NCBI RefSeq assembly: GCF_035975855.1
Contig: NZ_CP109056.1
Coordinates: forward strand, 62,001-126,000
Reading direction: 5' to 3'
DNA length: 64,000 nt
Source: Streptomyces sp. NBC_01304
GTDB taxonomy: Bacteria > Actinomycetota > Actinomycetes > Streptomycetales > Streptomycetaceae
Below the pieces are notes generated by a model, which was given only the letters and a program-made list of their open reading frames with translations, did no database searches and was not told where the DNA came from. Below are positions 11,900-61,568 of this stretch, in pieces; within the stretch, counting starts at the first letter, position 1; each line of letters starts with the position of its first letter. The position numbers and the translations under genes were made by a program.

Positions 11900-12010
11900 C
11901 TACGGACGAAGGACTGCGTCGGGGGCGCCGGTCAGGACCGTCTTCCCGGAGCCGGTGATGCCGACGAGCAAAACGGCGATCGGCCCGCTCACGTCCACTC
12001 CCCCGCTCAT
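11900..12010 (-). pseudogene. Truncated P-loop kinase N-terminus
   Basis: The ATG at 12010 overlaps the stop of the shikimate-dehydrogenase-like gene (ATGA), as do all genes of this operon. The product is only 36 aa: a first beta strand IAVLLV, a perfect Walker A GITGSGKT, and a stop soon after. Enzymes with this start (small-molecule or nucleotide kinases, AAA ATPases) are 170 aa or more. The remaining sequence to the next gene is too short to hold the missing part in another frame. So the last gene of the operon seems to have been cut off by a deletion or rearrangement. Confidence 0.6.
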
Positions 12011-14632: not shown

Positions 14633-15522
14633 GTGGTGATCTCCTTGGTGATCAGGTCGGCGGCGTGTGCGGCGCTCGGGGCGCGCAGGTAGGCGTACGG
14701 GCCGGCTTCCATCCGGTCGATCACGTGCCCACGCCAAAGCGCCAAGTCCGGGGTGTCCAGCGGCCAGACGGGCGCGTACGGGGTGCGGGTGGGCCCGGTG
14801 AGAGGGGTGGGCAGACCGGAGATGTAGCGCGCGGTCGCCTCGCTCAGCCGCAGGACCTCGTTGGTGTTGAACGGGATGGCGGATGCCATGCGGGCCACGG
14901 GCTGTGCGGGGTGCACGGTCAGTCGGACGAACAGGGTGACGTCGGCGGGGCCGGTGGCGAACGGCGCGAGGTCGATGAGGGGCTTGGGAGCATCCCAGCG
15001 GTCGGGCGCGGCCGGCGGGCGGACGGCGGCTGTCGGCTTGCCGGGCAGCACCGCGAGGCCGCCGCTGTGCTCGGTGAGGACGATCAGGTCGTCGCCGGCG
15101 TGGGTCCAGCCCCGCTCGGCGAGGGCGAGGATTGTGCTGGTCTTGCCCGCGCCCTTGTTGCCGAGCAGCACGACGGCCAGGCCGCTCGGGCTGATCATCG
15201 CGTTGGCGTGCAGGGTGAGCATCTGCCGTTGCTGGCGGGCCCGTTCAAGAGCGGTGTAGACGACGTAGCCCAGGGTCGCCGAGGTGAGCGCCTGATGCGG
15301 CAGCCGCAGGCGAACCATCTGCCCGTGCACGCTCACCTCGGGATGGTGCTGCAGGGCGTCCTCGACGACCACCCGTGCTTCACCGCCTGCTGTTGTGGCC
15401 GGGGTGAGGTGCCAGCCGCCGGGCAGGAACCGGTCCACCTGCCGGGCGAGGGCCTCACCGTCGACGGGGGCGGGCAGTTCGAGGGCTGCGGTGATGTGCC
15501 CGGTGGACACGCTGGTGTTCAT
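14629..15522 (-). CDS. HPr kinase-like P-loop protein
   Basis: 297 aa from ATG 15522, overlapping the AdoMet synthetase stop. The central part LTLHANAMISPSGLAVVLLGNKGAGKTSTILAL holds a Walker A in the setting typical of HprK C-terminal-domain relatives, and AERGWTHAGDDLIVL supplies the DD pair. These relatives recur in peptide and natural-product clusters as small-molecule or peptide kinases. The C-terminus LIDLAPFATGPADVTLFVRL is also family-like. A phosphorylation step in the operon's pathway is the likely role; the substrate is unknown. Confidence 0.7.
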   Translation of the reverse strand: MNTSVSTGHITAALELPAPVDGEALARQVDRFLPGGWHLTPATTAGGEARVVVEDALQHHPEVSVHGQMVRLRLPHQALTSATLGYVVYTALERARQQRQMLTLHANAMISPSGLAVVLLGNKGAGKTSTILALAERGWTHAGDDLIVLTEHSGGLAVLPGKPTAAVRPPAAPDRWDAPKPLIDLAPFATGPADVTLFVRLTVHPAQPVARMASAIPFNTNEVLRLSEATARYISGLPTPLTGPTRTPYAPVWPLDTPDLALWRGHVIDRMEAGPYAYLRAPSAAHAADLITKEITT

Positions 15523-16730
15523 GACGGGGGCGGGCTGTCGAGCTGGGCCAGGAGGTCGTCGACGGGGGCGAGGCGGGGCAGGTAGCGCTCCTGGTCGACG
15601 AGGTCGCTCATCCAGTCGGTACGGGCCAGGCTCTCGCGCACCAGCCTCTCCGCGCCGGCCGGGTCCTTGGTGGTGATCTCCACGGAGGCGGGGTCGGGGT
15701 AGCGGGCGCCGTTGCGCCACATCACCGCCACACGGCAGGGCCCCGCGGTGGTGGCCAGGGTGCGGGCGGCGGTGTCGGTGAGCCAGCCTCCGACCTTGCC
15801 GACGTGGTAGGCGGGATTCTTGCCGAACAGGGCCTCGTTGCCGGCCTGCTGGGCTGGGGTGATCAGGCCGGAGCGGGCGTTGCCGCGGCCGACCATGCCG
15901 TCCTCGCCGTAGTCGACGGCGGAGCCGGTGAGGGTGAAGTACTGCTGCGACAGCGGCCCGGTACGGGTGTTGCGCGTGTTGCACACCACCTCGATGGGTC
16001 CGGGGAGGCGCTTGCTGAGCTCGGCGGTGAGCCGGGCGGTGGCGTCCTGGGTGGCGTCGGCGAGCTCGGCGGCCGTCGAGAGGTGTCCGGCCAGGGCCGG
16101 CACGCACGCGGTGACGGTGAAGGCCTGGCCGTCGCGGACGACGAGGGCCTTGATGTCGCTGCCCGCCCACGGCTGCCGGCGGAACCAGGCCTCGGTCAGC
16201 AGCGCGAGCGTCTCTGCCCTGCTCGGGCTGCCGGTGGCGACGAGGTACGCGGTGTCGTTCGCGAAGGCCGTCGGCCGCTCGGGCAGGTCTTCCAGGCCGT
16301 GCGGCGCGAACCAGCGCGCGAACTTGGAGGAGTCGGTGGTCTCGTGCCGCACCACCCAGTTCAGATGCGCGTAGCCGGGCAGGGCGTCCTGCAGCTGTTC
16401 GCGGGCGGCCTGCTCGAGGATGTCGCGGACCGGAAGCAGGCGGCCGGCGAACGAGGTGGAGATCCTGCCGCCGAAGACGACCCGCAGCGGCCGGTCGTAG
16501 ACGCCGTCGGTGGCGCCGAAGCGGGCGCGGCCGCCGAGGACGGCGACCTTGTCCAGGTTGTGGTGCAGGACCGCGCCGAATTCGGCGAGGCAGTAGCGGG
16601 CGTAGAGGATCGAGGCGCGCTCGGCGATGGCGTCGGCGAGGGTGTCGGGGTGGCCGACGCCCTTGCGTTCGACGACCTCGACGGCGAGTTCATGCGGCAG
16701 CCGGGACGGGGCGGGCGCTGTCGTAGACAT
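15519..16730 (-). CDS. Archaeal-type S-adenosylmethionine synthetase
   Basis: 403 aa from ATG 16730 with GGAGG 9 bases upstream. It matches the archaeal MAT family (COG1812), not bacterial MetK. Features are VERKGVGHPDTLADAIAERAS, EFGAVLHHNLDKVAVLGG, VVFGGRISTSF and MVGRGNARSGLITPAQQAGNEA, followed by LFGKNPAYHVGKVGG. It should make AdoMet from methionine and ATP. The first 41 bases overlap the oxidoreductase gene, and its stop overlaps the HprK-like start. No methyltransferase is encoded in the operon, so it either supplies AdoMet to an enzyme elsewhere or works on an analogue. Confidence 0.9.
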   Translation of the reverse strand: MSTTAPAPSRLPHELAVEVVERKGVGHPDTLADAIAERASILYARYCLAEFGAVLHHNLDKVAVLGGRARFGATDGVYDRPLRVVFGGRISTSFAGRLLPVRDILEQAAREQLQDALPGYAHLNWVVRHETTDSSKFARWFAPHGLEDLPERPTAFANDTAYLVATGSPSRAETLALLTEAWFRRQPWAGSDIKALVVRDGQAFTVTACVPALAGHLSTAAELADATQDATARLTAELSKRLPGPIEVVCNTRNTRTGPLSQQYFTLTGSAVDYGEDGMVGRGNARSGLITPAQQAGNEALFGKNPAYHVGKVGGWLTDTAARTLATTAGPCRVAVMWRNGARYPDPASVEITTKDPAGAERLVRESLARTDWMSDLVDQERYLPRLAPVDDLLAQLDSPPPS

Positions 16731-17622
16731 GGGTGATGACCTCCAATAGGCGCCGCAGCGCCGACAGCGGGTACAGGCAGGGATGGGGCATGGCGGGCTG
16801 CTCGGTGGCGGCCAGCAGGGCCCGGTACATGTGCTGGCGCAGGATCTGGTGATCGGGCGCGGCCGCCTCGGGGCCGAGTCCGGCTTCGAGGTTGCGCCCG
16901 CGGACCACCAGGCGCTGGCCGTCGGCCAGGTGCAGGATCACGTGATGGTGCGGGGGCGCGTCACTGTCCACGCGGGCTCGGACCTTGAGCGTGGCGCCGG
17001 TCTCGAAGCGAACGTCGGCGTCGATGCGGTCCTCGGTCTCCGCCCAGTCCCGGGTGTGGGTGCGGGCGGCCGTGCACGCGGAGATGGCGCTGGTGTTCAT
17101 CAGGCGCACGGCAAGGGCGAGGCCGTGGATGGCCTGCTGGTGCAGGACGCCTCCGGCGGTGGCGTACTGGGTGCGCCAGCCGCGGTAGTAGGGCCGGTCC
17201 CGGCGGCACACCAGCGTCACCTCGGCGTGCTCGACGACGGGGGGCTTGTGCAGCAGCTCGGCGAGGCCGGGGGCGAAGTGCGGCTGGAACCCGACGAACA
17301 CCCGCTCATCGCCCGGTTGGGGCGCCAGTTGCGCGGCATCGAGCGCGGCTGGCTTCTCGACCAGGACGTACGCGCCGGTCGCGGCCGCGGTGCGGGCGAT
17401 CTTCAGAGCGGTGCCTGGCGGGGTGGCGACGGTGACCAGGTGGGGACGCAGGGCGGCGAGCGCGGTCTGCCAGTCGTCGAACCGCCGCCATCCCGCCGCG
17501 ACGATCGTGCTGGGGGCGGGGTCGGCGATCCCTGCCACCTGGGCGCCCTCGATCTGTCCGAGGGCGTGAAGGTGCTTGGCGCCGACCTCGCCCGCGCCCA
17601 CGAGCAGTACCCGAGCGGTCAT
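16690..17622 (-). CDS. Gfo/Idh/MocA-family oxidoreductase
   Basis: 310 aa from ATG 17622 (ATGA with the TIM-barrel gene). An N-terminal Rossmann fold VLLVGAGEVGAKHLHALGQI is followed by the family lysine motif VLVEKPAAL. A C-terminal sheet domain contains GGVLHQQAIHGLALAVRL, whose His lies in the catalytic helix position, and RARVDSDAPPHHHVILHLADG. These enzymes oxidise or reduce sugar and inositol hydroxyls with NAD(P). Paired with a xylose-isomerase-like TIM barrel, the usual partner in inositol/sugar routes, it points to a cyclitol or sugar substrate. Confidence 0.85.
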   Translation of the reverse strand: MTARVLLVGAGEVGAKHLHALGQIEGAQVAGIADPAPSTIVAAGWRRFDDWQTALAALRPHLVTVATPPGTALKIARTAAATGAYVLVEKPAALDAAQLAPQPGDERVFVGFQPHFAPGLAELLHKPPVVEHAEVTLVCRRDRPYYRGWRTQYATAGGVLHQQAIHGLALAVRLMNTSAISACTAARTHTRDWAETEDRIDADVRFETGATLKVRARVDSDAPPHHHVILHLADGQRLVVRGRNLEAGLGPEAAAPDHQILRQHMYRALLAATEQPAMPHPCLYPLSALRRLLEVITHVYDSARPVPAAA

Positions 17623-18458
17623 GTCCGCGTTCCGGAGGTCGCGGTGCGCAGGAAGGCGGCGCCCTCGCGCAGCGCGGCCGCGGGGTCGTCGCGGACGTGG
17701 GTTTCCAGCGCGTACGGCAGCCCGGGACGGACCTGTTCCAGGACGGGCAGCAGCCGGGAGTAGGGGACGTGTCCGGCGCCGGCCGCGACGAAGTCCTTCC
17801 ACCCCTCATGACCGGGGATGAAGTCCTTGATGTGGACGTAGTCGACGTACGGGGCGAGCTCGGCGACCGTGCCGGCATCGGCCTGGCCGACCTCGTGCAG
17901 GTTGCCCAGGTCGAGCCAGAGCCGCAGCCGGTCATGACGCCGCAGTACCTCGAGCAGCGGGTGGGCCGTGGCGATCGTGCACACTGGTTCGTTCTCCAGC
18001 AGCAGGCGCACGTTGGCCCGGTCGGCCTGGTCCAGGGCGTAGGTGAGCAGCCGGTCCCCCAGGAGCGCGTCCTGGGGGCCGTGTTCGACCTTCAGGTGGG
18101 AGAAGATCCGGACCCGCTCGGTGCCCAGCAGTTGCGCGACGTGCAGCGCCCGGTCGATCCACTGGGTCCGTTCGGAGGCTGGAACTCGGGTGGGGAAGCC
18201 GAAGCTGTCCACCTGTCCCGTGGCCGCCTCGGGGCGGCACCACTTCCATAGCGGGGAGGCCAGCGCGGCCACCGTCAGCTCTCGCTCGTCGGCCAACTCC
18301 CGGATGTGAAGGAGCTGTTCATCGGCGAGCAGGAGGGCGTTGGCCCCGTAGGCGGACCGGATCTCCAGCCGCCCGATACCCAGGGCAACCGCGAGATCCA
18401 TTCCCGCCACCGGGTCTGCTCCGAGTTCATCCGGGTTGAGCACGAGGTGACCGTGCAT
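17619..18458 (-). CDS. Xylose isomerase-like TIM-barrel enzyme
   Basis: 279 aa; ATG 18458 has AAGGAG about 8 bases upstream and heads the operon. Barrel strands carry the expected metal ligands: LLLENEP (Glu), LRLWLDLGNLHEVG (Asp), DYVHIKDFIPG (His/Lys/Asp) and YALETHVRDDP (Glu). This is the AP-endonuclease-2/sugar isomerase-epimerase family (IolE, IolI, dehydratases and epimerases). Together with the next gene it forms the cyclitol/sugar module of the operon. Confidence 0.85.
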   Translation of the reverse strand: MHGHLVLNPDELGADPVAGMDLAVALGIGRLEIRSAYGANALLLADEQLLHIRELADERELTVAALASPLWKWCRPEAATGQVDSFGFPTRVPASERTQWIDRALHVAQLLGTERVRIFSHLKVEHGPQDALLGDRLLTYALDQADRANVRLLLENEPVCTIATAHPLLEVLRRHDRLRLWLDLGNLHEVGQADAGTVAELAPYVDYVHIKDFIPGHEGWKDFVAAGAGHVPYSRLLPVLEQVRPGLPYALETHVRDDPAAALREGAAFLRTATSGTRT

Positions 18459-50104: not shown

Positions 50105-50680
50105 CTACGGACGCAGGACGTAGCAGGCGAGATGGTCGAGGTCGACGGAGGTCACCCTCGACCAGCCGGAGGTGAGGACTTCGGTCTCGGCCGCGGTGAT
50201 GCCCAGGGCCTTGAGCGGGTCGTCCGCCGCGCGCCGGTCGGCCAGTTCGGTGACCACCCACACCATCCCGCCCGGCGCCAGGACGCGGCGGACCCGGTCG
50301 AGGAAGGCGGGCTTGTCGGCCACGAACCGGTACACCAGCCGGCAGGTGATGACGGCGTAGGCCGGGGCGGGCAGCAGGCTCAGATCGTCGGTGGCGAAGT
50401 CCATGACCTGAAAGCACGGCCTGCCGTCGGCGCCGTCGGCGGCTGTGGTGGCAAGGGAGACGGCGCTGGGTGCGCAGTCGATGCCGGTGACCTGGTAGCC
50501 GAGGTGGTCGTGAAGATGTTGGGCGAGCATTCCGTCGCCGGATCCGATGTCGAGTGCCGGCCGGCCGCGGCCGGCGCCGAGATGCTCGGTGAGCAGTCCG
50601 GCTTCCGCATCGTTGATCTGCCGATAGCGGCGGCCCACGGCCCACAGGGGCTCCCAGTACGCCCGCGGGGAGTCGATCAC
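50105..50680 (-). CDS. SAM-dependent methyltransferase
   Basis: 191 aa from GTG 50680; GGAGG upstream; GTGA overlap with the ABC gene. Class I fold: PALDIGSGDGMLAQHL (SAM loop), VTGIDCAPSAVSLA, FQVMDFATDD, VLAPGGMVWVVTELAD. The short N-terminus RAYWEPLWAVGRRYRQINDA fits Ubi/SAM methyltransferases. Last gene of the small-ORF/ABC operon; its substrate may be the exported compound. Confidence 0.82.
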   Translation of the reverse strand: MIDSPRAYWEPLWAVGRRYRQINDAEAGLLTEHLGAGRGRPALDIGSGDGMLAQHLHDHLGYQVTGIDCAPSAVSLATTAADGADGRPCFQVMDFATDDLSLLPAPAYAVITCRLVYRFVADKPAFLDRVRRVLAPGGMVWVVTELADRRAADDPLKALGITAAETEVLTSGWSRVTSVDLDHLACYVLRP

Positions 50681-52650
50681 GTGTCCTCCTTCGCCGGACG
50701 GTAGGCGTCGCGGTCCTGCTGAAGGCGCCACAAGTCCCGCATCAGACCGGGCTGGTTGACCAGGTCGTGGAAGGCGCCCATCTGCACGACGCGCCCCTTG
50801 TCCATGACCACGACGCGGTCCGCGATCGAGGTGTTGGCGAGGTTGTGGGTCACCAGGACCACGGCCCGGTCGCCCGCCAGGTCCCGCAGCCCGGTGAAAA
50901 TCCGGTGCTCAGCACGTGGGTCGAGGTCGGAGGTCGGCTCGTCCATGACGAGCAGGCCGGCGTCACGGTGGACCGCGCGGGCGACCGCGATGCGCTGCCA
51001 CTGCCCTGGCGAGAGCGCCACCCCGCCCCACCACTCCCTGGCCAGCAGGGTGTTGAGCCCCGAGCGGAGGGTGGCGATCACGTCGTCGGCGCCGCTGGCC
51101 GCGGCAGCCCGGCGCGCTGCCACATCGCCGTCGGGGCCAGGCTGGCCGAGGGTGATGTTCTCCCGTGCGGTCATGGGCCAGCGGGCGAAGTCCTGCGGGA
51201 CCACGGACGTCTGGCGCCACATCGCGTGCGCGTCGAGGTCGGTGACGCTGCGGCCGTCCCAGGTGACGACACCGCGGGTTGCGAGGTTGAGTCCGGACAG
51301 GAGTTTCATCAACGTCGACTTGCCGGAGCCATTTTCGCCGACGACGGCCACGATCTCGCCCTGGTGGACGTCGAAGTCGACGTCGTGCAGGGTGTCGTCC
51401 TTGGCTTCCGGGTAGCGGAAGGTGACGTTGCGCAGCGCGATGTGGCGGGGGCGCTGCGGCGTGAGGGTGCCGCGGTCGAGGCGCTGGCCGGCGGCTTCGT
51501 TGACGAACCGTTCCCAGTCGTCCAAGTACAGGCCGGTGCGCATCAGTTCGCGGCCGTAGCCGACGAGTCCTTGCAGGCCGGTGGCTGCGGAGCGCAGGGC
51601 GAACACGGCGGTGCCGGCGGCGGCCGCCGAGATGCGTCCGGTGCCCAGCAGGACGAAGACGGCGCCCCACAGCACGGTGGACGCCAGTCCGGTGGCGGCG
51701 GACCCCACCAGGGCGATCTTGGCTCGCTTGAAGGTGGCGGTGTTGCTGGTGGCCTCCACCCGGACAGCACTGGTCTTGTACTTCTCCAGGAGGTACGGGG
51801 CCAGGGTGTCGGTGCGGACCTGGTCGGACTGGTCCTTGGCGATCAGGTACCAGCGGAGCATGCCCATCATGCGGCGGTCCTTGTGGGTGGCGACCGTGGC
51901 CAGGTAGGTGATGCGCTCGCCCCGCACGGACGCGATCGCCTGCGGTACCGCGGCCAGCAGCAACAGCGGCAGGAGCAGCGGGTACAGGCTGGCCAGCACC
52001 GCGCCGGCCGCGATCAGGGTGGTGAGGGAGGAAATGTAGTTCTGGGACTGGCCGATCATCTGCCGGCTGACGTCGACTCCCCGCTCGGCGGCGTCGTAGC
52101 GGTCGTTGAAGCCGGGGTGGTCGTACGCGCTCTGCTCGGCGTTGGTCGCCGCTTCCAGCATCTTGTACTCCGCCTCGCGGCAGATGCGCGGAGAGAGCCG
52201 GTTGGACAGGGCTTCGATGGCGATGCCCAGCAGAGCCCGCACTCCGGCCATAGCGGCCAGCACGACCACCGCCGGGACGGCCGCGCGCAGACGGCCAGGA
52301 TCGGCGGCCGTCTCGATCAGTACCGCCAGGGCTCGGGTCATCGCGAGCAGGCCCAGCGCCCCGGACACCCCGGACACGATCTGGCAGGCCAGCAGCGCGA
52401 GGACCGATTTGCGATCGACTTCCCAGGCCAGGGCGAACGTGCGCCGGATCAGTGAGGGAAGCCGGCGGGCCATGCTGCGCCCGGTCAACAGGTCCGCCAA
52501 CTCGAGGCTGTCGCCGCCGGGATGGTTGAGCGCCAGCGTCTCCTCGACGGACGCCTCAGTGCTGCCGCTGTCCGGGGCGGTCGCCGGGGACGGCGGGTCC
52601 GCGGCCGCCTGCTTCGGGGTCTGTGCGGGCAGTCTGAAGGAGCGCTTCAT
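50677..52650 (-). CDS. ABC exporter, fused permease and ATPase
   Basis: 657 aa; ATG 52650 overlaps a small upstream ORF (ATGA). About 70 polar residues precede six membrane helices. The ATPase has Walker A VVGENGSGKSTLMKLLSGL, Q-loop SVVPQDFARWP, signature LSPGQWQRIAVARAV, Walker B GLLVMDEPTSDLD and the H-loop VLVTHNLAN. No C39 peptidase is attached. Half-size exporter that should act as a homodimer to expel a small molecule or peptide. Coupled on both sides: to three small ORFs before it and a methyltransferase after it. Confidence 0.9.
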   Translation of the reverse strand: MKRSFRLPAQTPKQAAADPPSPATAPDSGSTEASVEETLALNHPGGDSLELADLLTGRSMARRLPSLIRRTFALAWEVDRKSVLALLACQIVSGVSGALGLLAMTRALAVLIETAADPGRLRAAVPAVVVLAAMAGVRALLGIAIEALSNRLSPRICREAEYKMLEAATNAEQSAYDHPGFNDRYDAAERGVDVSRQMIGQSQNYISSLTTLIAAGAVLASLYPLLLPLLLLAAVPQAIASVRGERITYLATVATHKDRRMMGMLRWYLIAKDQSDQVRTDTLAPYLLEKYKTSAVRVEATSNTATFKRAKIALVGSAATGLASTVLWGAVFVLLGTGRISAAAAGTAVFALRSAATGLQGLVGYGRELMRTGLYLDDWERFVNEAAGQRLDRGTLTPQRPRHIALRNVTFRYPEAKDDTLHDVDFDVHQGEIVAVVGENGSGKSTLMKLLSGLNLATRGVVTWDGRSVTDLDAHAMWRQTSVVPQDFARWPMTARENITLGQPGPDGDVAARRAAAASGADDVIATLRSGLNTLLAREWWGGVALSPGQWQRIAVARAVHRDAGLLVMDEPTSDLDPRAEHRIFTGLRDLAGDRAVVLVTHNLANTSIADRVVVMDKGRVVQMGAFHDLVNQPGLMRDLWRLQQDRDAYRPAKEDT

Positions 52651-53317: not shown

Positions 53318-55093
53318 ATGGCGATTCGCGCCGAGCATGTGCAGGGCGTCGTGGCGGCCTACCTGGGCCGCTATCCCGACGAGGAGCTGGCGTTGCGGTC
53401 CCTGATCGGGCGGTTCGGATCGGGCGAACCCGCCACGAGCCGCACGGACTTCACGGGCCATGTCACCGTGTCCGGCGTCATCGTCAACGATGACGGCCAG
53501 GTCCTGCTGGTGGACCACCTGGCGTCCGGTCGGCGACTTCAGCCAGGGGGCCACTGCGAGGACACGGACGAGACGCTGATCGGCGCGGTCCTGCGGGAGA
53601 TCGACGAGGAGACGGGCATCACCGGCCTGGAGTTCTACGCCGATGATCAGCCGCTGCACATCGACGTGCACACGATCGTGGCCCGGCCGGCGAAGAACGA
53701 GCCGGCGCACCAGCACTTCGACGTCCGCTTCCTGTTCCGTGTCCACGGCCGCGTCAAAGTCGAGCTGCAGGTCGAGGAGGTCGCCGGCGCCGCATGGCGC
53801 GGGCCCTCCGAGCTCGGCGACCCCGTGCTGCGGGCGCGGGTGTTGAAGGCGCTCGGGCGCCCGCGGGAGGACCGCGCGGCCGACGAAGACCCGTACGGCA
53901 CGCTCGTGGTGCTCACCGACGCGGCCGGCCGGGTCCTGATGCATTTGCGCGACGACCTGCCGGGTATCTGGGCGCCGGGGACGTGGGCACCGTTGGGCGG
54001 CGGCGCGGAGCCGGCCGACGCTGATCCGCACGCCACCGGGGTGCGGGAGCTGTACGAGGAAGTCGGGCTGCAGGACGTCGAGTTGACGGCGATGTTCACC
54101 ATCGACTCGGACGGCTACCCGGTCCACGTGCTGCACGGATACTGGGACGGCGACCCGGCCGACCTGGTCCTGACCGAAGGCACCGACCTTGCCTTCATCG
54201 ACCCGGCCGACTTCGACCGCGTGCCCATGCACGGCTCGGTGAAGGCGGACACCCGGCGAGTCTTGGACCTCATCACCCCCAAGCCCGCCCCGTACGGCTA
54301 TGGGACTCTCGCCCTGATCTCCAACGCCGACGGACACCTGCTCATGCACCGGCGCGATGACCGGCCCGGCATCTGCTGGCCGGGCACCTGGTCCCCCAAC
54401 GGAGGCAAGCCCGAAGCCGCGGACGCCGGACCCCGGGGCACGATCCTGCGCGAAGTCGACGAGGAGATCGGTCTGCGGATCCCCCTCGAGCATCTGCTCA
54501 CCCATCGCGCCGACGACACCGGGCACTTGACGTACGTCTTTCGCGGACGCTGGGACGGCGACCCCGCCGACCTGGTCCTGACCGAAGGCACCGACCTCGC
54601 CTTCGTCGACCCCAAGAACATGGGCGATCGGCCCATGAGCCCGCTGGCCCGCTACACGGCCTTGAGCGGACTCAGCGCTGCCCTGGAAGAGCAGGCCCAC
54701 GCTGATGGCATCCGCGACCTCGTCGCAGCTGGCCTGATCGTGCAAAACGAACACGTCCTCGTCGTACGCCGAAACCCGGACGACTACCTCGGCGGCAGCT
54801 GGGAGATCCCCGGCGGTGGCGTCGGGGCGGAGTCCATCGTCGACGGCCTCCTGCGCGAACTGGATGAGGAGACCGGCCTGCCGATCGCCAGGGTCGACAC
54901 GTACCTCGGGCACTACGACTACCTGAACGCCCGCGGCCGCATCAGCCGGCAGTTCGTCTTCACCGTCGTCCCCGACAAGTGCGCCCCGGTGGTCCTTTCC
55001 GAGCACGACCGCCACCAGTGGGTGAGCGATCCGACGGAACTTCTCGTCATGGCGCCCGAGTTGCGTCGCTTCCTGAAACAGCACGGGCTGTAG
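53318..55093 (+). CDS. Protein with four tandem Nudix domains
   Basis: 591 aa from ATG 53318. Four Nudix units: box 1 GGHCEDTDETLIGAVLREID near residue 85, box 2 GGGAEPADADPHATGVRELY near 230, box 3 NGGKPEAADAGPRGTILREV near 365 and box 4 GGGVGAESIVDGLLRELDEE near 505. Boxes 1, 3 and 4 keep the REx2EE core; box 2 reads RELYEE. Domains 2 and 3 share an almost identical stretch WDGDPADLVLTEGTDLAF. Nudix enzymes hydrolyse X-linked nucleoside diphosphates. A nucleotide house-cleaning or biosynthetic role next to the ThyA-fusion operon is likely (inference). Confidence 0.85.
   Translation: MAIRAEHVQGVVAAYLGRYPDEELALRSLIGRFGSGEPATSRTDFTGHVTVSGVIVNDDGQVLLVDHLASGRRLQPGGHCEDTDETLIGAVLREIDEETGITGLEFYADDQPLHIDVHTIVARPAKNEPAHQHFDVRFLFRVHGRVKVELQVEEVAGAAWRGPSELGDPVLRARVLKALGRPREDRAADEDPYGTLVVLTDAAGRVLMHLRDDLPGIWAPGTWAPLGGGAEPADADPHATGVRELYEEVGLQDVELTAMFTIDSDGYPVHVLHGYWDGDPADLVLTEGTDLAFIDPADFDRVPMHGSVKADTRRVLDLITPKPAPYGYGTLALISNADGHLLMHRRDDRPGICWPGTWSPNGGKPEAADAGPRGTILREVDEEIGLRIPLEHLLTHRADDTGHLTYVFRGRWDGDPADLVLTEGTDLAFVDPKNMGDRPMSPLARYTALSGLSAALEEQAHADGIRDLVAAGLIVQNEHVLVVRRNPDDYLGGSWEIPGGGVGAESIVDGLLRELDEETGLPIARVDTYLGHYDYLNARGRISRQFVFTVVPDKCAPVVLSEHDRHQWVSDPTELLVMAPELRRFLKQHGL
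54142..54204 (+). repeat. 63-bp direct repeat inside the Nudix gene, copy 1
   Basis: Differs from 54550-54612 at only 3 of 63 positions. Encodes WDGDPADLVLTEGTDLAFID. Conservation even at third codon positions points to recent duplication or gene conversion between domains 2 and 3. Confidence 0.9.
54550..54612 (+). repeat. 63-bp direct repeat inside the Nudix gene, copy 2
   Basis: Partner of 54142-54204, offset 408 bases, in frame, in Nudix domain 3. Confidence 0.9.
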
Positions 55094-55170: not shown

Positions 55171-56055
55171 TCAGCTGGGCTGAGCGATTCGCCCGTCGGC
55201 CCGCTCAGCGATCCGCTGCAGGTGCGACGTGTAGGTGTCCGCGGCGTTGGCGTCGATGGCCCACAGGTTGACGGCGGCGGTGGCGATGACGTCGCAGAGT
55301 TCTTTCTTGACGTCGTCGATGGTGTGGGTCTTGCCCTTGCGCGGGTTGAAGGCTGTCACTCCGATGAGGGCCTCGGCCACCTCGCCCACCTCCTCGGTCA
55401 GCTTGTGTACGAGCAGCGACTGGAAGTGCATCTCGTCAAGGCCGGGGTTCTCTTCCTTGAACCACTTCGCGATCCGGGCGATGTTGGCCCACATGTCGGC
55501 GGTCATGACCGTTCCTCTCAGTGCTGTTGGTGGTCGACGGAGCAGGGCCGCGGACCTCGGGCGCAGGACTGCCGGGAGTCCCCGTACAAGACGGGCGACG
55601 GGTCCGACAGCGGGGGCCTGCAGGGCGAGTTCGGCGCGCGGACGGCCCTGCTCGGGCAGCGCGGCGATCGCTTCCTCGGTGGGGATGATCCGCAGGTACG
55701 CCCGCGGGTCGCGGTAGGTGAGGTGACGGGCCTCTGCTCGGGTGAGCGGATCGGTGATGAGTACGCAGACGGTGACCTTCCGGCGCCGCATCTGTGCTTC
55801 GTCCACGACGACGCACCGCAGGCCCGGCAGACCGTGCGCGGTGCCTTGGAGGACCACGTTCGCGGCCTGCTCGGGTGTCTGCTCCTCGGTCATAGGCCCG
55901 ACGGGAAGCATGAGAGCGCCGTGGAGTTCGGCCATGAGCAGCCCGCCGCCTTCGACGGGGACCACGAGACAGACGCCGAGGAGCGGCGGGCGCCAGTTCT
56001 CGTACGGTGCCCGCGGGCGGGCCGACGTCGCGGTGGCCGCGGCGCGGGCGTGCAT
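55171..56055 (-). CDS. Degenerate Nudix domain fused to a MazG-like pyrophosphohydrolase
   Basis: 294 aa from ATG 56055 (TGATG junction with the reductase gene). Residues 1-140 have a Nudix-like layout (PPLLGVCLVVPVEGGGLLMA, ELHGALMLPVGPMTEEQTPE) but lack the REx2EE box. Residues about 184-294 are a MazG-type helical domain: HFQSLLVHKLTEEVGEVAEA with the metal-binding EEVGE, and DDVKKELCDVIATAAVNLWA with the second acidic set ELCDV. An internal ATG at 55506 with AGAGG upstream could also give MazG alone (111 aa). MazG enzymes cut NTPs or dNTPs to monophosphates. Last gene of the nucleotide operon. Confidence 0.75.
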   Translation of the reverse strand: MHARAAATATSARPRAPYENWRPPLLGVCLVVPVEGGGLLMAELHGALMLPVGPMTEEQTPEQAANVVLQGTAHGLPGLRCVVVDEAQMRRRKVTVCVLITDPLTRAEARHLTYRDPRAYLRIIPTEEAIAALPEQGRPRAELALQAPAVGPVARLVRGLPAVLRPRSAALLRRPPTALRGTVMTADMWANIARIAKWFKEENPGLDEMHFQSLLVHKLTEEVGEVAEALIGVTAFNPRKGKTHTIDDVKKELCDVIATAAVNLWAIDANAADTYTSHLQRIAERADGRIAQPS

Positions 56056-56828
56056 CAGACCCACCCCGCCACCGCGGTGACGATCTCCTTGAGGTGGTGG
56101 GGGTTGCTGGTGCCGGGGATCGGGGCGACGTGCGAGCCGAGGTTGAGGAGCCAGTCCAGCGCGGCCAGAACGCCGTGCGACTGGGCGAGGCTGCCGGCGC
56201 CGAGCGGCCGGTAGGGCACATACGGGATGTCGAGGTCACGGCAGAGTTCCAGGGCCGGGTCGTCGCGGTCGATGATGCTGAGGGCGTTCTGTACCGCGGC
56301 GACGGGCTGTTCCTTGTGGACCCGGCGGATGTCCTCGGGGGTGACCTTGGACAGGCCGATGTGCCCGATCTTGCCCTCCTGCTGCAGGGCTTGGAGGACG
56401 GCGACCTGGTCGTCGAGCAGGATCTCCGGGTCGATGCGGTGCAGGTAGCACAGCTCGAGCCGCTCGACGCCGAGCCGGCGCAGGCTGGCCTCGACGCTGG
56501 CGCGCAGGTAGGCGGGGTGCCCGTGCGGGGCCCACATTTCCGGGGCGGGGCGGATCATGCCGACCTTCGTGGCGATCAGCACGTCCTGCGGGTACGGGTG
56601 GAGGGCGTCTCGGATCAACTCCTCGACGGTGTGCGGGCCGTAGGCGTCCGCGGTGTCGATGTGGGTGATGCCGTGGTCGTGGACGGCCTGGCGCAGCACG
56701 TTCAGCGCGGTGTCCCGGTCGGTCGGGTCGCCCCAGGTGCCGGGGCCGGTCAGGCGCATGGTTCCGAACCCGAGGCGGGAGACGGTCTTGCCGGCGAGGG
56801 TGATGGTGCCGGCCGGTGCGCGGCTCAT
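56055..56828 (-). CDS. Aldo/keto reductase
   Basis: 257 aa from ATG 56828 (ATGA with the P-loop gene). AKR barrel: VSRLGFGTMRLTGPGTWGDP, HIDTADAYGPHTVEELI (catalytic Asp/Tyr), VLIATKVGM (Lys), LELCYLHRIDPE (His position) and IPGTSNPHHLKEIV (cofactor end). NADPH-linked reduction of an aldehyde or ketone. In this operon it may reduce an aldehyde made on a nucleoside or its side chain. Confidence 0.87.
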   Translation of the reverse strand: MSRAPAGTITLAGKTVSRLGFGTMRLTGPGTWGDPTDRDTALNVLRQAVHDHGITHIDTADAYGPHTVEELIRDALHPYPQDVLIATKVGMIRPAPEMWAPHGHPAYLRASVEASLRRLGVERLELCYLHRIDPEILLDDQVAVLQALQQEGKIGHIGLSKVTPEDIRRVHKEQPVAAVQNALSIIDRDDPALELCRDLDIPYVPYRPLGAGSLAQSHGVLAALDWLLNLGSHVAPIPGTSNPHHLKEIVTAVAGWV

Positions 56829-57442
56829 ACGACGGCCTCCTTGAGGCAGAGCTTGACGGCTCGGTCGACGGCGCGGGCCTGACTGTCCGGGTCGCTGGTC
56901 ACCCGGTGGTGCTCGATTCCCTCCGCGGCGAGGAGGCGGTGGGTGTGCTGGTCGACCAGGGTGCGGTAGCGGGTGTCGTAGGCGTGCCGGCTGTCGACCG
57001 GGATGTCCGGGTCGAGGGCGGTGGCCAGGAGCAGGTGGTACTTCGGGGCCTGGGTGGCTGCCAGGACGAGCAGCCGCTCGCGGTCGTGCCGGTGCGGTGT
57101 CTCCTGGCGCCATTCCTGGGCGGCGTGCCAGTAGGCGAGCGCGTCCCAGGCGGCGCGGTCGGCGAGGACGACCTGGATGGGCTCGGGGCCCGGCCGGGCG
57201 GCTGCGGCGATCTCGTCGGCGATGCCCTGGGCGAGGACCCACTCGGTGGAGGCCACGGTGTGGTGCTGCATCTTGGGCAGCGGAACGAGGGCGGCGCGCT
57301 TGCCGAGTTGACCGGTGCGGTTCACCGGGATGCCGTAGCCGCGCAGCGTCATCTCGATGCGCTGGAGGAGCAGGGTCTTGCCGGTGGAGTGGGCTCCCAT
57401 CACGCCGATGCGGATGGGAGCGGTCGTGGAGGTCGCGGTCAC
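56825..57442 (-). CDS. P-loop ATPase/kinase (NadR- or dNMP-kinase-like)
   Basis: 205 aa from GTG 57442, GTGA overlap with the exonuclease gene. Walker A GVMGAHSTGKTLLLQRIEMT, then a Walker-B-like VVLADRAAWDALAYW (ADR as in nucleotide kinases) and a lid region with arginines (HRHDRERLLVLAATQAPKYH). Proteins with this pattern include NadR-type and thymidylate-kinase-like enzymes. Phosphorylation of the operon's nucleotide is a fair guess. Confidence 0.72.
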   Translation of the reverse strand: MTATSTTAPIRIGVMGAHSTGKTLLLQRIEMTLRGYGIPVNRTGQLGKRAALVPLPKMQHHTVASTEWVLAQGIADEIAAAARPGPEPIQVVLADRAAWDALAYWHAAQEWRQETPHRHDRERLLVLAATQAPKYHLLLATALDPDIPVDSRHAYDTRYRTLVDQHTHRLLAAEGIEHHRVTSDPDSQARAVDRAVKLCLKEAVV

Positions 57443-58041
57443 CACAGGGTGGGTTCCTCTTCTGGTTGGGGGGCACCGGGCAGGCCGGGCGGCACGGCCG
57501 CGGCGACGAGCTGGTCCCAGGTGTCGTAGTGGCCGGCCATGGCGATCAGGAGTTGCGCCGTGGCGTAGGTGTCGAAGGTGGCGCGGTGGCGCTGGGCGGG
57601 AGCGGCGCTGAGGTCCAGCTCGGCGTGCTCGATCAGCGCGTCCAGGGAGTACTTGCGCAGCCCCGGAAAGGTCGCCTTGGCCAGGCGGAGTGTGTCGAGG
57701 ACTCCGTCCGGCGCCCAGGTGGGCAGGTGCGCGGTCAGCACCTGGTATTCGGTGTGGGCGCGGTGCGCGCAGATCCACGACGTGCCGAGCAGCTCCTGGA
57801 CCTGGCCCGCGATTTCGGGCCAGGTGGGCTCGTGGGCGAGCTTCTCATTGGTCAGGCCGTGGATCCTCGCGGCGTGGAAGGTGACCGGCTGCTTCGGGCG
57901 GGTCAGCCAGGCGCCGGCCGTGGTGGCGTCCAGGTGCCCGTCGCGTACGGGCAGGGCGGCGACCTCGACGAGGTCGGGCGGGTTACCGCCGTTGCCCTCG
58001 ACGTCGACGACGAGCAGCGGCGGCCAGGCGGTGAAGTTCAT
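57439..58041 (-). CDS. DEDDh 3'-5' exonuclease
   Basis: 200 aa from ATG 58041 (ATGA with the radical SAM gene). Exo I LLVVDVEGNGGNPPDLVEVA (Asp and Glu), HAARIHGLTNEKL, Exo II WICAHRAHTEYQVL (usual Asp is His here or displaced) and Exo III HRATFDTYATAQLLI. Close in shape to DnaQ/RNase T proteins. The Exo II change deserves attention. Likely trims nucleic acid to nucleotides or acts on dinucleotides. Confidence 0.75.
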   Translation of the reverse strand: MNFTAWPPLLVVDVEGNGGNPPDLVEVAALPVRDGHLDATTAGAWLTRPKQPVTFHAARIHGLTNEKLAHEPTWPEIAGQVQELLGTSWICAHRAHTEYQVLTAHLPTWAPDGVLDTLRLAKATFPGLRKYSLDALIEHAELDLSAAPAQRHRATFDTYATAQLLIAMAGHYDTWDQLVAAAVPPGLPGAPQPEEEPTLW

Positions 58042-59219
58042 TCGGAGTCGGGTCCGTCCTCCGCCTGCCAGCCGATGGGGGCCCGGCCGTGCTGGCGGTA
58101 GTGGTGGGGCTTGGCGCGGTCGTGGCACTGGTAGCCGAAGCCGTGCTGCAGGTAGTAGCGCGGCGGCTCGTCCAGTCCCTCCACGACGATGGCACGGTCG
58201 TTGACCTCAACTTCGCCGGTCGCGCCGAGGAGACGGGCCTGCTGGGTGACGGCGGCGAGGTCGGGCCGTATCCAGGCCTTGCGGCACAGTGCGAGCTGCT
58301 TGGGCGGGCAGATCTCGCACAACTCGCGGATGCCGTAATGCCCGTTGTAGTCGGCCTCCCCGTGCGCGAAGGCGACCCCGCAGCTCGTCTTGCGGAACAA
58401 GGTCCCCCACTCCTTGCCGGGCTGCGGGTTCGCGAATGCCTCGAGGATCCGCTGCTCGGCCTCCTCCGGCATGATCTTGCGGCGGGCGGTGCCCTCGTAC
58501 GGCGAGGGCAGGCCGACCGACTCGTAGTAGGCGGCGATCTCGTCCCGGTAGAACAGGCCGGTGAACACGGTGGCGTGCGCGCTCAGGGACAGTTCGCGGG
58601 CGCGCTCCAGGTGCTCGTCGGAGTCGTTGAGGCCGGGCACGATCGGCCGCCAGTAGTGGACGGTGCGGTACCGGTCGGCGTTGGCGTACAGGGTGCGCAG
58701 ACTGTCGGCGGCGATGGTGGAGTTGACCGGCTCGATGCCGCCGTGCTCGATGCCGGAGTGGGTGACCAGCACGGTCAGGCGCAGGTTCGCGAAGGAGTTG
58801 AGGACCGCGCAGTCCTCCTCGTCGACCTTCCAGCGGGTGATGATCAGGACGTGGTTGGTCAGCCCCTGCTCGTCCAGCATGCGCAGCACCTTGAACAGGT
58901 GCGGCTTCACGATGGGGAGCATCGGGTCGGTGGCGCGGTTGAGGAGCTGGAGCGGCGTCTGGTGCGGCCGGAAGTAGGGGTGGCCGACCAGCAGGGCGAC
59001 GGCCTCCTCGTCGGTCATCAGCCGGCGGGGCGTCTTCAGGTCGAAGTTGTCGAAGAGGTGGCGCACGCAGTAGGCGCACTCCAGAGGGCAGCCGACGATC
59101 CAGTTCACGCTCAGGCCGGACTTGCGGTACTCCACCGGGTCGGCCAACTCCGGTTTGAGCGCGCCTATTTGCTCCTTGTTCAGGATCGGCAGCGGGCGGC
59201 GGTGCGTGGCGGTGACCAT
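58038..59219 (-). CDS. Radical SAM enzyme
   Basis: 393 aa; GGAGG 5-8 bases before ATG 59219. Cluster cysteines Cys44, Cys48 and Cys51 in GCPLECAYC give CxxxCxxC. Barrel phrases: TDPMLPIVKPHLFKVLRMLD, VLIITRWKVDEEDCAVL, HYWRPIVPGLNDSDEHLERA. Extra cysteines at TSCGVAF and ELCEICPPKQLALC suggest a second metal site near the C-terminus. The layout is that of SplB/Rv2578c-type enzymes. Catalyses a radical step on an unknown substrate. Confidence 0.87.
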   Translation of the reverse strand: MVTATHRRPLPILNKEQIGALKPELADPVEYRKSGLSVNWIVGCPLECAYCVRHLFDNFDLKTPRRLMTDEEAVALLVGHPYFRPHQTPLQLLNRATDPMLPIVKPHLFKVLRMLDEQGLTNHVLIITRWKVDEEDCAVLNSFANLRLTVLVTHSGIEHGGIEPVNSTIAADSLRTLYANADRYRTVHYWRPIVPGLNDSDEHLERARELSLSAHATVFTGLFYRDEIAAYYESVGLPSPYEGTARRKIMPEEAEQRILEAFANPQPGKEWGTLFRKTSCGVAFAHGEADYNGHYGIRELCEICPPKQLALCRKAWIRPDLAAVTQQARLLGATGEVEVNDRAIVVEGLDEPPRYYLQHGFGYQCHDRAKPHHYRQHGRAPIGWQAEDGPDSE

Positions 59220-59245
59220 CAGGGCCTCCAGAGCAGGGGGAAGGT

Positions 59246-59809
59246 TCAGCCGTCGCCGCGCGAGGGCTGCAGCGGGAGGGAGGGGGCGGTGAGCAGGACG
59301 CGGCGCCGGGCTCCGAACCAGGTGCCGAAGTCGCGGCGGGCCGCTTCCGGGTCATCGGAGGTGTGCACGAGGTTGCGGACCAGGCGCTTGCCGGCGAGGG
59401 CGGCCTGAAGGCTGTCGTTGCCGAGGGCGCCGCGGATGGTGTCCGGCGCGGCCTGCGACGGGTCGAAGTGCCCGAGGAGCTTGCGGAGTTGGGTGTGCAG
59501 GCCGGGCTCGCCGTGCGCGAGGGCGATGGTGACGCGGCGGCCGGCGTACGCGTCGTCCAGGCAGGCGGGGATGTCTCGGTCGGGGAACCAGTCGGCGTCG
59601 ACGAGGAGGTCCCAGTAGTGGACGTGCGCCTGCCAGGCCTCGGCCGTCAGGTCGAGCCGGTCGGTGACCGTGACGCCGGCGTCGGCGATCCGGTCCAGAA
59701 CGGCGCCGACCAGGCCCCGCTCGACCGCGTCGGGCTTGCACAGGATCACGGCCCAGCGGGCGAAGTCGACGCCCTCGACCACCGTGCCGCTGGCGGGTTT
59801 GCGGCTCAC
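59246..59809 (-). CDS. Nucleoside-diphosphate-kinase-like protein
   Basis: 187 aa from GTG 59809 (GTGA with the GntR-ThyA gene). NDK start ARWAVILCKPDAVERGLVGAVLDRI with KPDAxxRGL. TIRGALGNDSLQAALAGKRLVRNLVHTSD corresponds to the NDK segment R-x-N-x-x-H-G-S-D with the phosphorylated His kept and Gly to Thr. A 30-residue insertion (FPDRDIPACLDDAYAGR) follows the first third. Should transfer gamma phosphate to a nucleoside diphosphate, perhaps a modified one. Confidence 0.82.
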   Translation of the reverse strand: MSRKPASGTVVEGVDFARWAVILCKPDAVERGLVGAVLDRIADAGVTVTDRLDLTAEAWQAHVHYWDLLVDADWFPDRDIPACLDDAYAGRRVTIALAHGEPGLHTQLRKLLGHFDPSQAAPDTIRGALGNDSLQAALAGKRLVRNLVHTSDDPEAARRDFGTWFGARRRVLLTAPSLPLQPSRGDG

Positions 59810-61371
59810 CGGGCACCGCCGTCTTCCGCCGCGGCCGCGCACTGGGGCCAGCGTTGGGCCAGCAGCCAGCGCAGCCCCGGCTGCAGCGCGGTCATGATCT
59901 GCCGGTCCACCTGGCCGGTCTTCTCGTGCTGGAGCTGCCGGTAGACCTCGAAGAGGAGGAGGACCTGCTGCCAGTACGGGTCCACGTCAAGGCCGCGGAT
60001 GTGTGCGGCGCTGTAGCGGGCCTCGTTGGTCCTGAGCGCCTGCTCGTGTTCGAGGAGCAGGGTCACGGTCTGTTCGGTGGTGTCCTTCGGCATGGACGGG
60101 AAGTCGAAGGTGACCGGGGGCCGGGTATCTGCTTCGTCGAGGACGCGCTGGACACGCTGGGCGTTGGCGTCGTTCACGTGGCCCGCGTTGATGAGGTGGG
60201 TGTAGGTGCCCAGTTCCAGGCCGAGTTGGACGGCGGCGAACTCGTGGATGACGGTGAAGCTGAAGACGTCGGAGAGCAGGCCGCAGTCGAGGTCGTTGGC
60301 CCTCATGTTGCACACCATGTGCAGCTGGCCGTCGCGCGGCAGGAGGTGCAGGCCGGCGAGGCACGCCACGTCGGGGTTGTCCTCGATGGCGAGTTCGCCG
60401 GAGGAGAAGACCTGGAGGTATCCGCGCTTGGAGTCCTGCTCGGTGCGCAGCAGCTCAAGGACCTGGTGGAACGGGGAGAGCACGTCACTGGCGGCCGGGG
60501 TGAACAGGGTATGGCCGTAGGCCGATCCGCCGAGGTGGATGCCGTCGCGGGAGCTGGCGCGCATGGAGGGCGCGTAGTAGCCGATCATCTCCAGGTCGCG
60601 GCGGCCGGCGAGGTACCAGAGCGCTTCGGCCCATTGGAAGATCGGGTTCGCTCGGCGCTGTGCGAGGTAGGGCAGGCGCTGGCGGGGGTCATCGAGCTGG
60701 AACCCGGCGCCGATCACCTCCCGGGCGTGGTTGCCGCGCGCGGCGATGCGGTGCTCGTGCTGCTGGGTGGCCCGCCGGAGCAGCGCCAGGTAGGCGCCTT
60801 CAACATTCGGGTAGTTCGGCATCGCGTGCATGAATCCTCCGTGGATGAGTCCGTCGGGATCCGCGGTCGTCGCCGGAGCGGAGGGGCGCTCGAGGACCAG
60901 GGCGCCGAACCGAGGCTGGAGGGCGAGCAGGCCCTCAACGGCCAGCAGTCGCAGGGCGGTGCGGACGGTGCCGGGGTGAGCGGCGCACTGCCGGGCCAGC
61001 CTGTGCAGGGCGGGAAGCCGGGTGCCGAGAGGGTAGTAGCCATCCGCGATCCGACTGCGCAACATCGCAGCCAGCGACACGGCTTCAGGCGGCGCCTCAG
61101 GCACCTCCACGCGCCACCGTGCTCTCGTGGCCACCCTCAGATGCTGCTGCCCGTCGGATTCCAGCACCCGATACATGGCCAGCTGCTGCCGCGCAGCCCG
61201 CACTGTCTGGTCCGCCACGCCGAGCCGCTCGGACAGCTGCCATGCCGGCGGGAGCCGCTTGCCGACTGCGTAGCGGCCTTCGTGGATCTGGCGCAGGAGT
61301 ACGTGACCGGTGTCGGAGAGCCGGTCGGTGGACCGGAACCCGGCCCGACGCCCCTCTCCCCCGCCGCTCAT
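59806..61371 (-). CDS. Double GntR DNA-binding domain fused to a thymidylate-synthase-like enzyme
   Basis: 521 aa from ATG 61371 (ATGA with the DUF5999-like gene). First GntR winged helix about residues 20-80 (VLLRQIHEGRYAVGKRLPPA, LGVADQTVRAARQQLA). Second at 98-160 (LRSRIADGYYPLGTRLPALH, AHPGTVRTALRLLAVEGLL). From 185 on a ThyA fold: NPIFQWAEALWYLAGRRDLE, catalytic Cys337 in DVACLAGLHLLPRDGQLHMV, MRANDLDCGLLSDVFSFTVI and GTYTHLINAGHVNDANAQRV. The PCH motif is ACL and RSxD is RAND, so the substrate may not be dUMP; dCMP-hydroxymethylase-like chemistry is possible. Regulator and enzyme in one chain. Confidence 0.85.
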   Translation of the reverse strand: MSGGGEGRRAGFRSTDRLSDTGHVLLRQIHEGRYAVGKRLPPAWQLSERLGVADQTVRAARQQLAMYRVLESDGQQHLRVATRARWRVEVPEAPPEAVSLAAMLRSRIADGYYPLGTRLPALHRLARQCAAHPGTVRTALRLLAVEGLLALQPRFGALVLERPSAPATTADPDGLIHGGFMHAMPNYPNVEGAYLALLRRATQQHEHRIAARGNHAREVIGAGFQLDDPRQRLPYLAQRRANPIFQWAEALWYLAGRRDLEMIGYYAPSMRASSRDGIHLGGSAYGHTLFTPAASDVLSPFHQVLELLRTEQDSKRGYLQVFSSGELAIEDNPDVACLAGLHLLPRDGQLHMVCNMRANDLDCGLLSDVFSFTVIHEFAAVQLGLELGTYTHLINAGHVNDANAQRVQRVLDEADTRPPVTFDFPSMPKDTTEQTVTLLLEHEQALRTNEARYSAAHIRGLDVDPYWQQVLLLFEVYRQLQHEKTGQVDRQIMTALQPGLRWLLAQRWPQCAAAAEDGGAR

Positions 61372-61568
61372 GCGGCGACCGGCCGCGCGAGCACGTCCCG
61401 GTGGGGTGCCACGATCTGACCGTCGGGCAGTAACTCTCCGGTGTCGTCGAAGAGCACCACCCCGTTGCAGAGCAGGGACCATCCCTGCTGTGGGTGGTGC
61501 GCCACCCTCACCGCGGCCTCGCGATCGCTGTCGGCCGTGGTCGGGCAATGCGGCTGGTGCAGGCACAT
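61368..61568 (-). CDS. DUF5999-like small protein
   Basis: 66 aa; AGGAAG 7 bases before ATG 61568. MCLHQPHCPTTADSDREAAV and HHPQQGWSLLCNGVVLFDDT and GELLPDGQIVAPHR match the short Streptomyces family DUF5999. Cys/His residues at the start may bind a metal. Function unknown. First gene of the nucleotide operon; its stop overlaps the GntR-ThyA start. Confidence 0.75.
   Translation of the reverse strand: MCLHQPHCPTTADSDREAAVRVAHHPQQGWSLLCNGVVLFDDTGELLPDGQIVAPHRDVLARPVAA

Follow-up and report, generated by a model that had tools for sequence, protein, structure and literature searches.

Two pathways that start from 5-hydroxymethyl-cytidine monophosphate (hmCMP), those of mildiomycin and bacimethrin, are described as releasing the modified base by an N-glycosidase (PMC4081090, PMC11784345). 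In the cytidine monophosphate (CMP) hydroxymethylase MilA, Lys133 and Ala176, both common to BcmA, are reported as the determinants of ribose and Asp186 as that of cytosine, while His216 and the ribose-binding Tyr218 are described as extremely conserved (PMC5175136). Radical S-adenosylmethionine (SAM) enzymes also take part in described nucleoside pathways: 4'-thiothymidine is reported to be made by a radical SAM-kinase-triphosphatase cassette, thmA-C (PMC12691670), BlsE, from blasticidin S, is described as a radical SAM decarboxylase (PMC3715490), and the nsp14 exonuclease is reported to remove a natural cytidine analogue made by a radical SAM enzyme (PMC9415739). Here we analyse an operon of Streptomyces sp. 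NBC_01304 that combines a MilA-like protein with a putative radical SAM enzyme, within a 64,000-nucleotide stretch (NZ_CP109056.1, positions 62,001 to 126,000; hereafter the window) that lies on a contig of 237,824 bases, one of the four that make up the 11-Mb genome. We did not find this operon described in the open-access literature.

A preliminary description, made from the sequence, had placed eight leftward genes at 55171-61568, nearly all joined by 4-base overlaps and organised around a fusion of two GntR domains to a thymidylate synthase (ThyA), and had proposed a modified-nucleotide system. All eight open reading frames and their boundaries were confirmed, with 4-base overlaps at five of the seven junctions, the other two being a 1-base overlap and a 26-base gap, and Pfam agreed with the assignments of DUF5999, the double GntR, ThyA, NDK, the DEDDh exonuclease, the P-loop kinase and the aldo/keto reductase (Table 1). 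A modified-nucleotide operon is also the best reading after our follow-up: we consider it an evenly balanced proposition that this locus is a copy of a mobile operon of actinobacteria that makes an unusual cytidine nucleotide. Its interest lies in this mobile CMP-hydroxymethylase/radical SAM operon rather than in a regulator-enzyme fusion. The current annotation (thymidylate synthase, NDK, radical SAM protein, exonuclease) conceals a conserved mobile unit.

Compared with all solved structures, the ThyA part matched MilA (5jnh) at E 1e-74 and thymidylate synthases at best at 1e-7; an 18-sequence profile of it gave 2.4e-89 and 2e-12, respectively. As had been noted from the sequence, Cys337 is retained and the PCH and RSxD motifs are altered, to VACLA and RAND. 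K315, A358 and D368 (numbering of the 521-residue frame) align with Lys133, Ala176 and Asp186 of MilA. A database search that scored 8000 candidates returned 275 homologues, and in the best 120 of these all three residues are kept throughout; equivalents of the catalytic Cys155, His216 and Glu68 are found in 120 (C337), 120 (H398) and 119 (E249) of the same 120. The protein was rejected as a canonical thymidylate synthase on Ala358 and Asp368, which stand where the canonical copy L001 carries the Ser of RSxD and the uracil-binding Asn. A canonical ThyA is encoded elsewhere in the genome, on the 10.7-Mb contig (E 6e-124), so the housekeeping function probably does not fall to the operon copy. 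Taken together, these residues predict that the ThyA part 5-hydroxymethylates CMP, which supports, and narrows to CMP, the earlier suggestion that it might hydroxymethylate another pyrimidine; this first step is directly checkable via the three signature residues.

MilA (5jnh, 5b6d) is the protein's best match among solved structures. The protein has all six of these positions in common with MilA and BcmA, and differs from them in its operon, in having no MilB/BcmB gene nearby and at the Tyr218 position. This position (residue 400) is Asn in 108 of the best 120 homologues, as in the window, and Cys in the remaining 12, and we therefore name these proteins a MilA-like sister group rather than MilA. 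Tyr is retained at the mildiomycin/bacimethrin-type loci L073, L074, L109 and L110; Frankia-type and prophage copies carry Gly, Asn or Ala, and four distant copies (L112, L115, L149 and L150) have Lys at the 133 position and Gly replacing Ala176. In a 27-row tree, 15 hydroxymethylase rows of the radical-SAM type fall on one side of a branch with support 99/99, and the mildiomycin/bacimethrin type, itself unresolved as one group, adjoins them. The changed sugar site thus marks the radical-SAM-linked group and hints that a non-standard sugar or substrate is used. The genus also holds a second ThyA-like group (L017-L032), whose three signature sites read Arg, Gly/Ser and Asp (MRGQD or MRSQD), predicted to be cytosine-type enzymes and found in other gene contexts.

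At E 1e-20 the ThyA part matched 36 of 295 genus genomes, its own included; 13 of these reach at least 53% identity (own and three partial matches included), and the other 23 lie at or below 41%. A phylum-wide sample yielded matches in 3 of 296 genomes, namely its own and the distant L104 and L105, which have other residues. We counted neighbours at 30 named loci, as same-strand matches within the fetched stretch: NDK accompanied the thy gene in all 30, radical SAM and DEDDh in the same 27, the P-loop kinase in 24, the aldo/keto reductase in 23 and the Nudix-like gene in 19. DUF5999 (9/30) and MazG (2/30) are not core. The expectation that the neighbours would co-occur elsewhere therefore held for the six former genes and failed for the latter two. 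Of the three loci lacking radical SAM, L049 and L056 look like remnants and L058 ends 850 bases past thy. Gene order is conserved among relatives with short overlaps, while the genes upstream of the operon vary by locus, which acts as a built-in control. Three plasmid records show the same order, labelled thymidylate synthase, NDK, radical SAM, 3'-5' exonuclease and AAA ATPase, with the aldo/keto reductase next in two of them. At related loci on S. microflavus and Priestia plasmids, the hydroxymethylase is joined to a methyltransferase and a nucleoside 2-deoxyribosyltransferase; no gene for the latter was found in the window or the fetched radical-SAM-linked loci.

The label of radical SAM enzyme, given in the preliminary description, drew no Pfam hit. 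We retain it because the CxxxCxxC motif is invariant, because the relative L118 matches PF04055 at 7e-5 (below cut-off) and because the predicted fold is a partial barrel; all seven Cys are present in 34 of 34 full-length rows, and the four beyond the motif suggest a second cluster. The predicted structure (mean pLDDT 82, pTM 0.86) has spore photoproduct lyase as its top Foldseek match (E 2.7e-6, TM 0.45), and pyruvate formate-lyase activating enzyme and viperin are matched as well; by Z, spore photoproduct lyase and pyruvate formate-lyase activating enzyme tie (14.3 and 14.5). Spore photoproduct lyase acts on pyrimidines, and differs from the operon protein in sequence (about 11% identity), in gene context and in the C-terminal Cys set found here.

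A radical SAM profile matched 19 of 394 genomes of the class, including its own, and 17 loci were fetched from 16 of these 19, one of them (L119) in the window's genus. The DEDDh gene follows the radical SAM gene in 16 of the 17, and in six this pair is followed by a thymidylate-kinase-like gene (one a remnant; PF02223 at 1.6e-30 to 5e-29 in the three scanned), which again gives a nucleotide context. Hydroxymethylase and NDK precede radical SAM in three of the 17. The trio of radical SAM, DEDDh and thymidylate-kinase-like genes, with no hydroxymethylase match, was seen in other actinobacteria (L113, with the kinase remnant, L114, L117, L118, L120 and L127). Of 8000 proteins scored in a search with a radical SAM relative, 2328 reached E 1e-5, more distant families possibly among them; the best 120 of these include Frankia, Nocardia and Micromonospora proteins, many are named DNA repair photolyase, and two contain PF04055.

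The remaining enzymes largely keep their catalytic residues. The active-site His of NDK is present in 36 of 37 rows, and many relatives have two NDK domains per chain. The P-loop protein, probably a nucleotide or nucleoside kinase, keeps its Walker A Lys in 25 of 26 rows, and the aldo/keto reductase tetrad is intact in 23 of 23 full-length rows. The exonuclease retains four of five catalytic positions: D13 and E15 occur in 31 of 32 rows (one gap) and H152 and D157 in all 32, and the third acid is Glu98 in the window and likewise Glu in L037, whereas 14 of the 16 sequences aligned have Asp. What had been read as a Nudix-MazG fusion is indeed one open frame, of which the MazG match is sub-threshold (18.1 bits against a Pfam cut-off of 22) and the Nudix box appears degenerate by eye; the relative L037 matches PF00293 below cut-off (E 0.039). 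Because the Nudix part stands without MazG in relatives, and the window's MazG has its own start at 55506 behind GAGAGG, the frame may yield two products.

From these assignments we propose the following pathway. The MilA-type enzyme would add a hydroxymethyl group from methylene-tetrahydrofolate to C5 of CMP, or of a sugar-altered CMP, giving hmCMP; this step we infer strongly. Because no MilB/BcmB hydrolase gene lies nearby, the base would be retained and the nucleotide would stay intact. The P-loop kinase and NDK would then phosphorylate it to the di- and triphosphate. Remodelling of the 5-substituent or the sugar would fall to the aldo/keto reductase and the radical SAM enzyme, which resembles spore photoproduct lyase, and the DEDDh exonuclease would excise the analogue after incorporation by a host polymerase, or trim it from the ends of RNA. 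Such a pathway probably yields an antimetabolite nucleotide or a nucleoside antibiotic precursor. This reading is supported by MilA as by far the nearest solved structure, by the signature and catalytic residues, by the genome's own canonical ThyA and by the conserved order; the radical SAM model, which resembles, among others, enzymes acting on thymine dimers and on CTP, is consistent with it. If true, the operon would represent a further kind of CMP-hydroxymethylase pathway beside those of mildiomycin and bacimethrin, provide a substrate class for a large radical SAM family and point to an undescribed nucleotide as a possible antibiotic or antiviral lead.

A possible but unlikely alternative is that the locus is a compact cluster for a secreted nucleoside antibiotic, of the mildiomycin or bacimethrin kind, in which hmCMP is an intermediate and the kinases serve only transient phosphorylation. 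Its nearest enzymes are of MilA type, it is patchy in the genus, a usual pattern among antibiotic clusters, six loci including the window have an ABC exporter gene downstream, and its logic resembles that of thmA-C, where transient phosphorylation may occur (PMC12691670). Like thmA-C as reported, the operon is a small cassette with variable surroundings that holds a radical SAM enzyme, a nucleoside kinase and a phosphate-handling protein; hydroxymethylase, NDK and exonuclease are not among the thmA-C components named in the accessible part of that report (PMC12691670). However, the exporter lies outside the conserved core, and NDK at all 30 loci suggests that the triphosphate matters. Furthermore, tblastn with four MilB/BcmB-like proteins (E 1e-3) hit only L073 and L074, and neither the window nor the other fetched loci searched; the glycosyltransferase and aminotransferase of mildiomycin were not searched for. 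Both the described clusters and the predicted pathway here start from hmCMP, whereas NDK, radical SAM enzyme, DEDDh exonuclease, P-loop kinase and reductase follow here; with the MilB-type gene absent beside the hydroxymethylase, membership in a mildiomycin or bacimethrin cluster was rejected.

Distinctly unlikely, in our view, is a viperin-like chemical weapon of independent origin, borne by phages and plasmids, in which an enzyme of a little-studied radical SAM family would convert hmCMP to a CTP analogue that terminates chains or mispairs, activation would come from the kinases of the operon itself and excision by DEDDh would protect the carrier; the lost Tyr218 would then mean that the hydroxymethylase acts on a sugar-modified CMP. 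As with viperin and CMPK2, which yield ddhCTP, a radical SAM enzyme presumed to act on nucleotides is paired with a nucleoside monophosphate kinase, and an exonuclease is reported to be able to remove such an analogue (PMC9415739). Unlike viperin, the operon protein has four extra invariant Cys and is accompanied by a hydroxymethylase, and we saw no match to viperin sequence models, viperin sequences themselves not having been compared directly. The parallels with nsp14 and 4'-thiothymidine are analogies.

The operon is mobile: copies occur on plasmids, in prophage-like DNA and close to genes for a phage portal or endolysin. The ThyA part matched 40 plasmid records, five of them, all Streptomyces, at 60-80% identity, and 140 phage records, all below 60% identity and the best 20 of these at 21-31%. 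Eight virus-collection contigs bear the radical SAM gene, seven of them with hydroxymethylase and NDK; the eighth, L148, has radical SAM, DEDDh, kinase and reductase matches and no hydroxymethylase or NDK match. A capsid gene was recognised by PF05065 in three of the eight records. In L143, L145 and L146 a portal gene stands 1-2 kb downstream of the operon (PF04860 at 6e-42 in L143, similarity in L145 and L146), and in L149 and L150 the operon adjoins an amidase endolysin gene. The L146 portal is identical to one in the genome locus L065, the only one of 50 genome loci (L033-L082) matched by the tested portal and amidase proteins. Among 110 flanking proteins scanned of 268 eligible, PADLOC at 1e-10 hit at most five, which is no clear sign of defence genes though there was no control set for comparison, and PHROGs gave scattered regulators, transposases and unknowns.

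A ThyA homologue, a kinase and NDK are a classic phage tool set, and together with the copies beside portal and endolysin genes this could point to phage DNA hypermodification, with a modified dCTP arising by ribonucleotide reduction of hmCDP and protecting phage or prophage DNA. We consider this quite improbable: the signature residues are of the ribose type, a search of 50,697 records of cultured phages at E 1e-5 gave no match to the radical SAM protein, plasmids carry copies too, the tested portal or amidase proteins matched just one of the 50 genome loci and PF04860 detects no portal gene in the genome that contains the window. A role in repair or in cleaning of the nucleotide pool is equally doubtful; here the radical SAM enzyme would be a DNA repair photolyase, the exonuclease would free damaged nucleotides and the kinases would recycle them. 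The first place of spore photoproduct lyase in Foldseek, the photolyase names among the radical SAM homologues listed and the suitability of exonuclease, kinase, Nudix and MazG for cleaning would fit; yet a hydroxymethylase of MilA type produces a modified nucleotide without repairing anything, the Nudix box appears inactive and MazG occurs at only two of the 30 loci.

The GntR domains and a complete ThyA-type enzyme share one uninterrupted frame, which had been taken as the organising idea of the locus. The best 120 of the 275 homologues are all unfused (326-362 aa, PF00303 only), the GntR part has no close relative in the other 294 genomes of the genus searched (2e-113 to itself, 7e-12 for the next best match) and no same-strand match at E 1e-4 in the 30 named loci, and the fusion was therefore rejected as a conserved system. 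GntR residues 1-180 matched none of 7089 candidates, in a search that also missed the window's own protein and whose E-values, for a 5.8-billion database, mask mere GntR-domain similarity. Weaker GntR-like matches lie near four loci, on the opposite strand at L059 (E 2e-5), L054 (5e-4) and L058 (0.002) and on the same strand at L042 (0.006); phrog_10724 and phrog_9285, which also match the window's GntR part, were each hit by two of the 110 flanking proteins, and unfused GntR genes may thus stand near some copies. The ThyA part retains an internal ATG (60831), four bases past GGAGG and near the start site of unfused relatives, from which an unfused product may be made besides the fusion. The fusion is probably private to this strain and recent, and the GntR addition may tune this operon copy. 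That the chain is a regulator-enzyme through which the nucleotide controls its own pathway is highly improbable: both helix-turn-helix domains and the complete enzyme are indeed in one open frame, but the fusion was found in this genome only, the enzyme has a likely ribosome-binding site of its own and the upstream region showed only 7-base inverted repeats and no clear operator.

Table 1 Features of the operon (window coordinates)
Feature	Position	Strand	Evidence
DUF5999 protein, 66 aa	61368..61568	-	PF19462 E 3e-32; 4-base overlap with next gene
GntR-GntR-ThyA frame, 521 aa	59806..61371	-	Pfam GntR and ThyA
Two GntR winged-helix domains, N-terminal, in frame with ThyA	60841..61371	-	PF00392, 2 stretches, E 1.4e-19
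GGAGG, likely ribosome-binding site, four bases before internal ATG (60831)	60836..60840	-	sequence and alignment to unfused relatives
MilA-like CMP 5-hydroxymethylase (predicted), 341 aa from internal start	59806..60831	-	MilA 5jnh E 1e-74; ThyA Pfam 1.6e-12
NDK-like protein	59246..59809	-	PF00334 E 2.7e-17
Radical SAM enzyme (putative)	58038..59219	-	CxxxCxxC (C44, C48, C51) and invariant C280, C301, C304, C312; predicted fold; no Pfam hit
DEDDh 3'-5' exonuclease	57439..58041	-	RNase_T PF00929 E 1.6e-13
P-loop kinase (AAA_28)	56825..57442	-	PF13521 E 7e-7
Aldo/keto reductase, tetrad D58, Y63, K88, H130	56055..56828	-	PF00248 E 6e-55
Nudix-like/MazG frame, whole	55171..56055	-	one open frame
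Degenerate Nudix-like domain; loss of catalytic box judged by eye	55507..56055	-	alignment A5 of 7 sequences
MazG-like domain, in frame with Nudix part, own start and GAGAGG site	55171..55506	-	PF03819 E 0.0033, below cut-off

Outside the operon, a four-Nudix protein (PF00293 in 4 stretches; 53318-55093, + strand) converges on it and has a same-strand match at only one of the 30 named loci. Beyond it lie an ABC exporter gene and then a methyltransferase gene (50105-52650, - strand); an ABC exporter gene is also found near the operon in L033, L043, L045, L060 and L069, together with MazG in L043 and L069. The window holds a second tight operon (12007-18458, - strand), which encodes a shikimate dehydrogenase-like N-terminal domain, an F420 ligase-like protein, an AdoMet synthetase, a Gfo/Idh/MocA oxidoreductase and a xylose isomerase-like barrel, as well as two proteins for which Pfam gave no hit at 1e-5.

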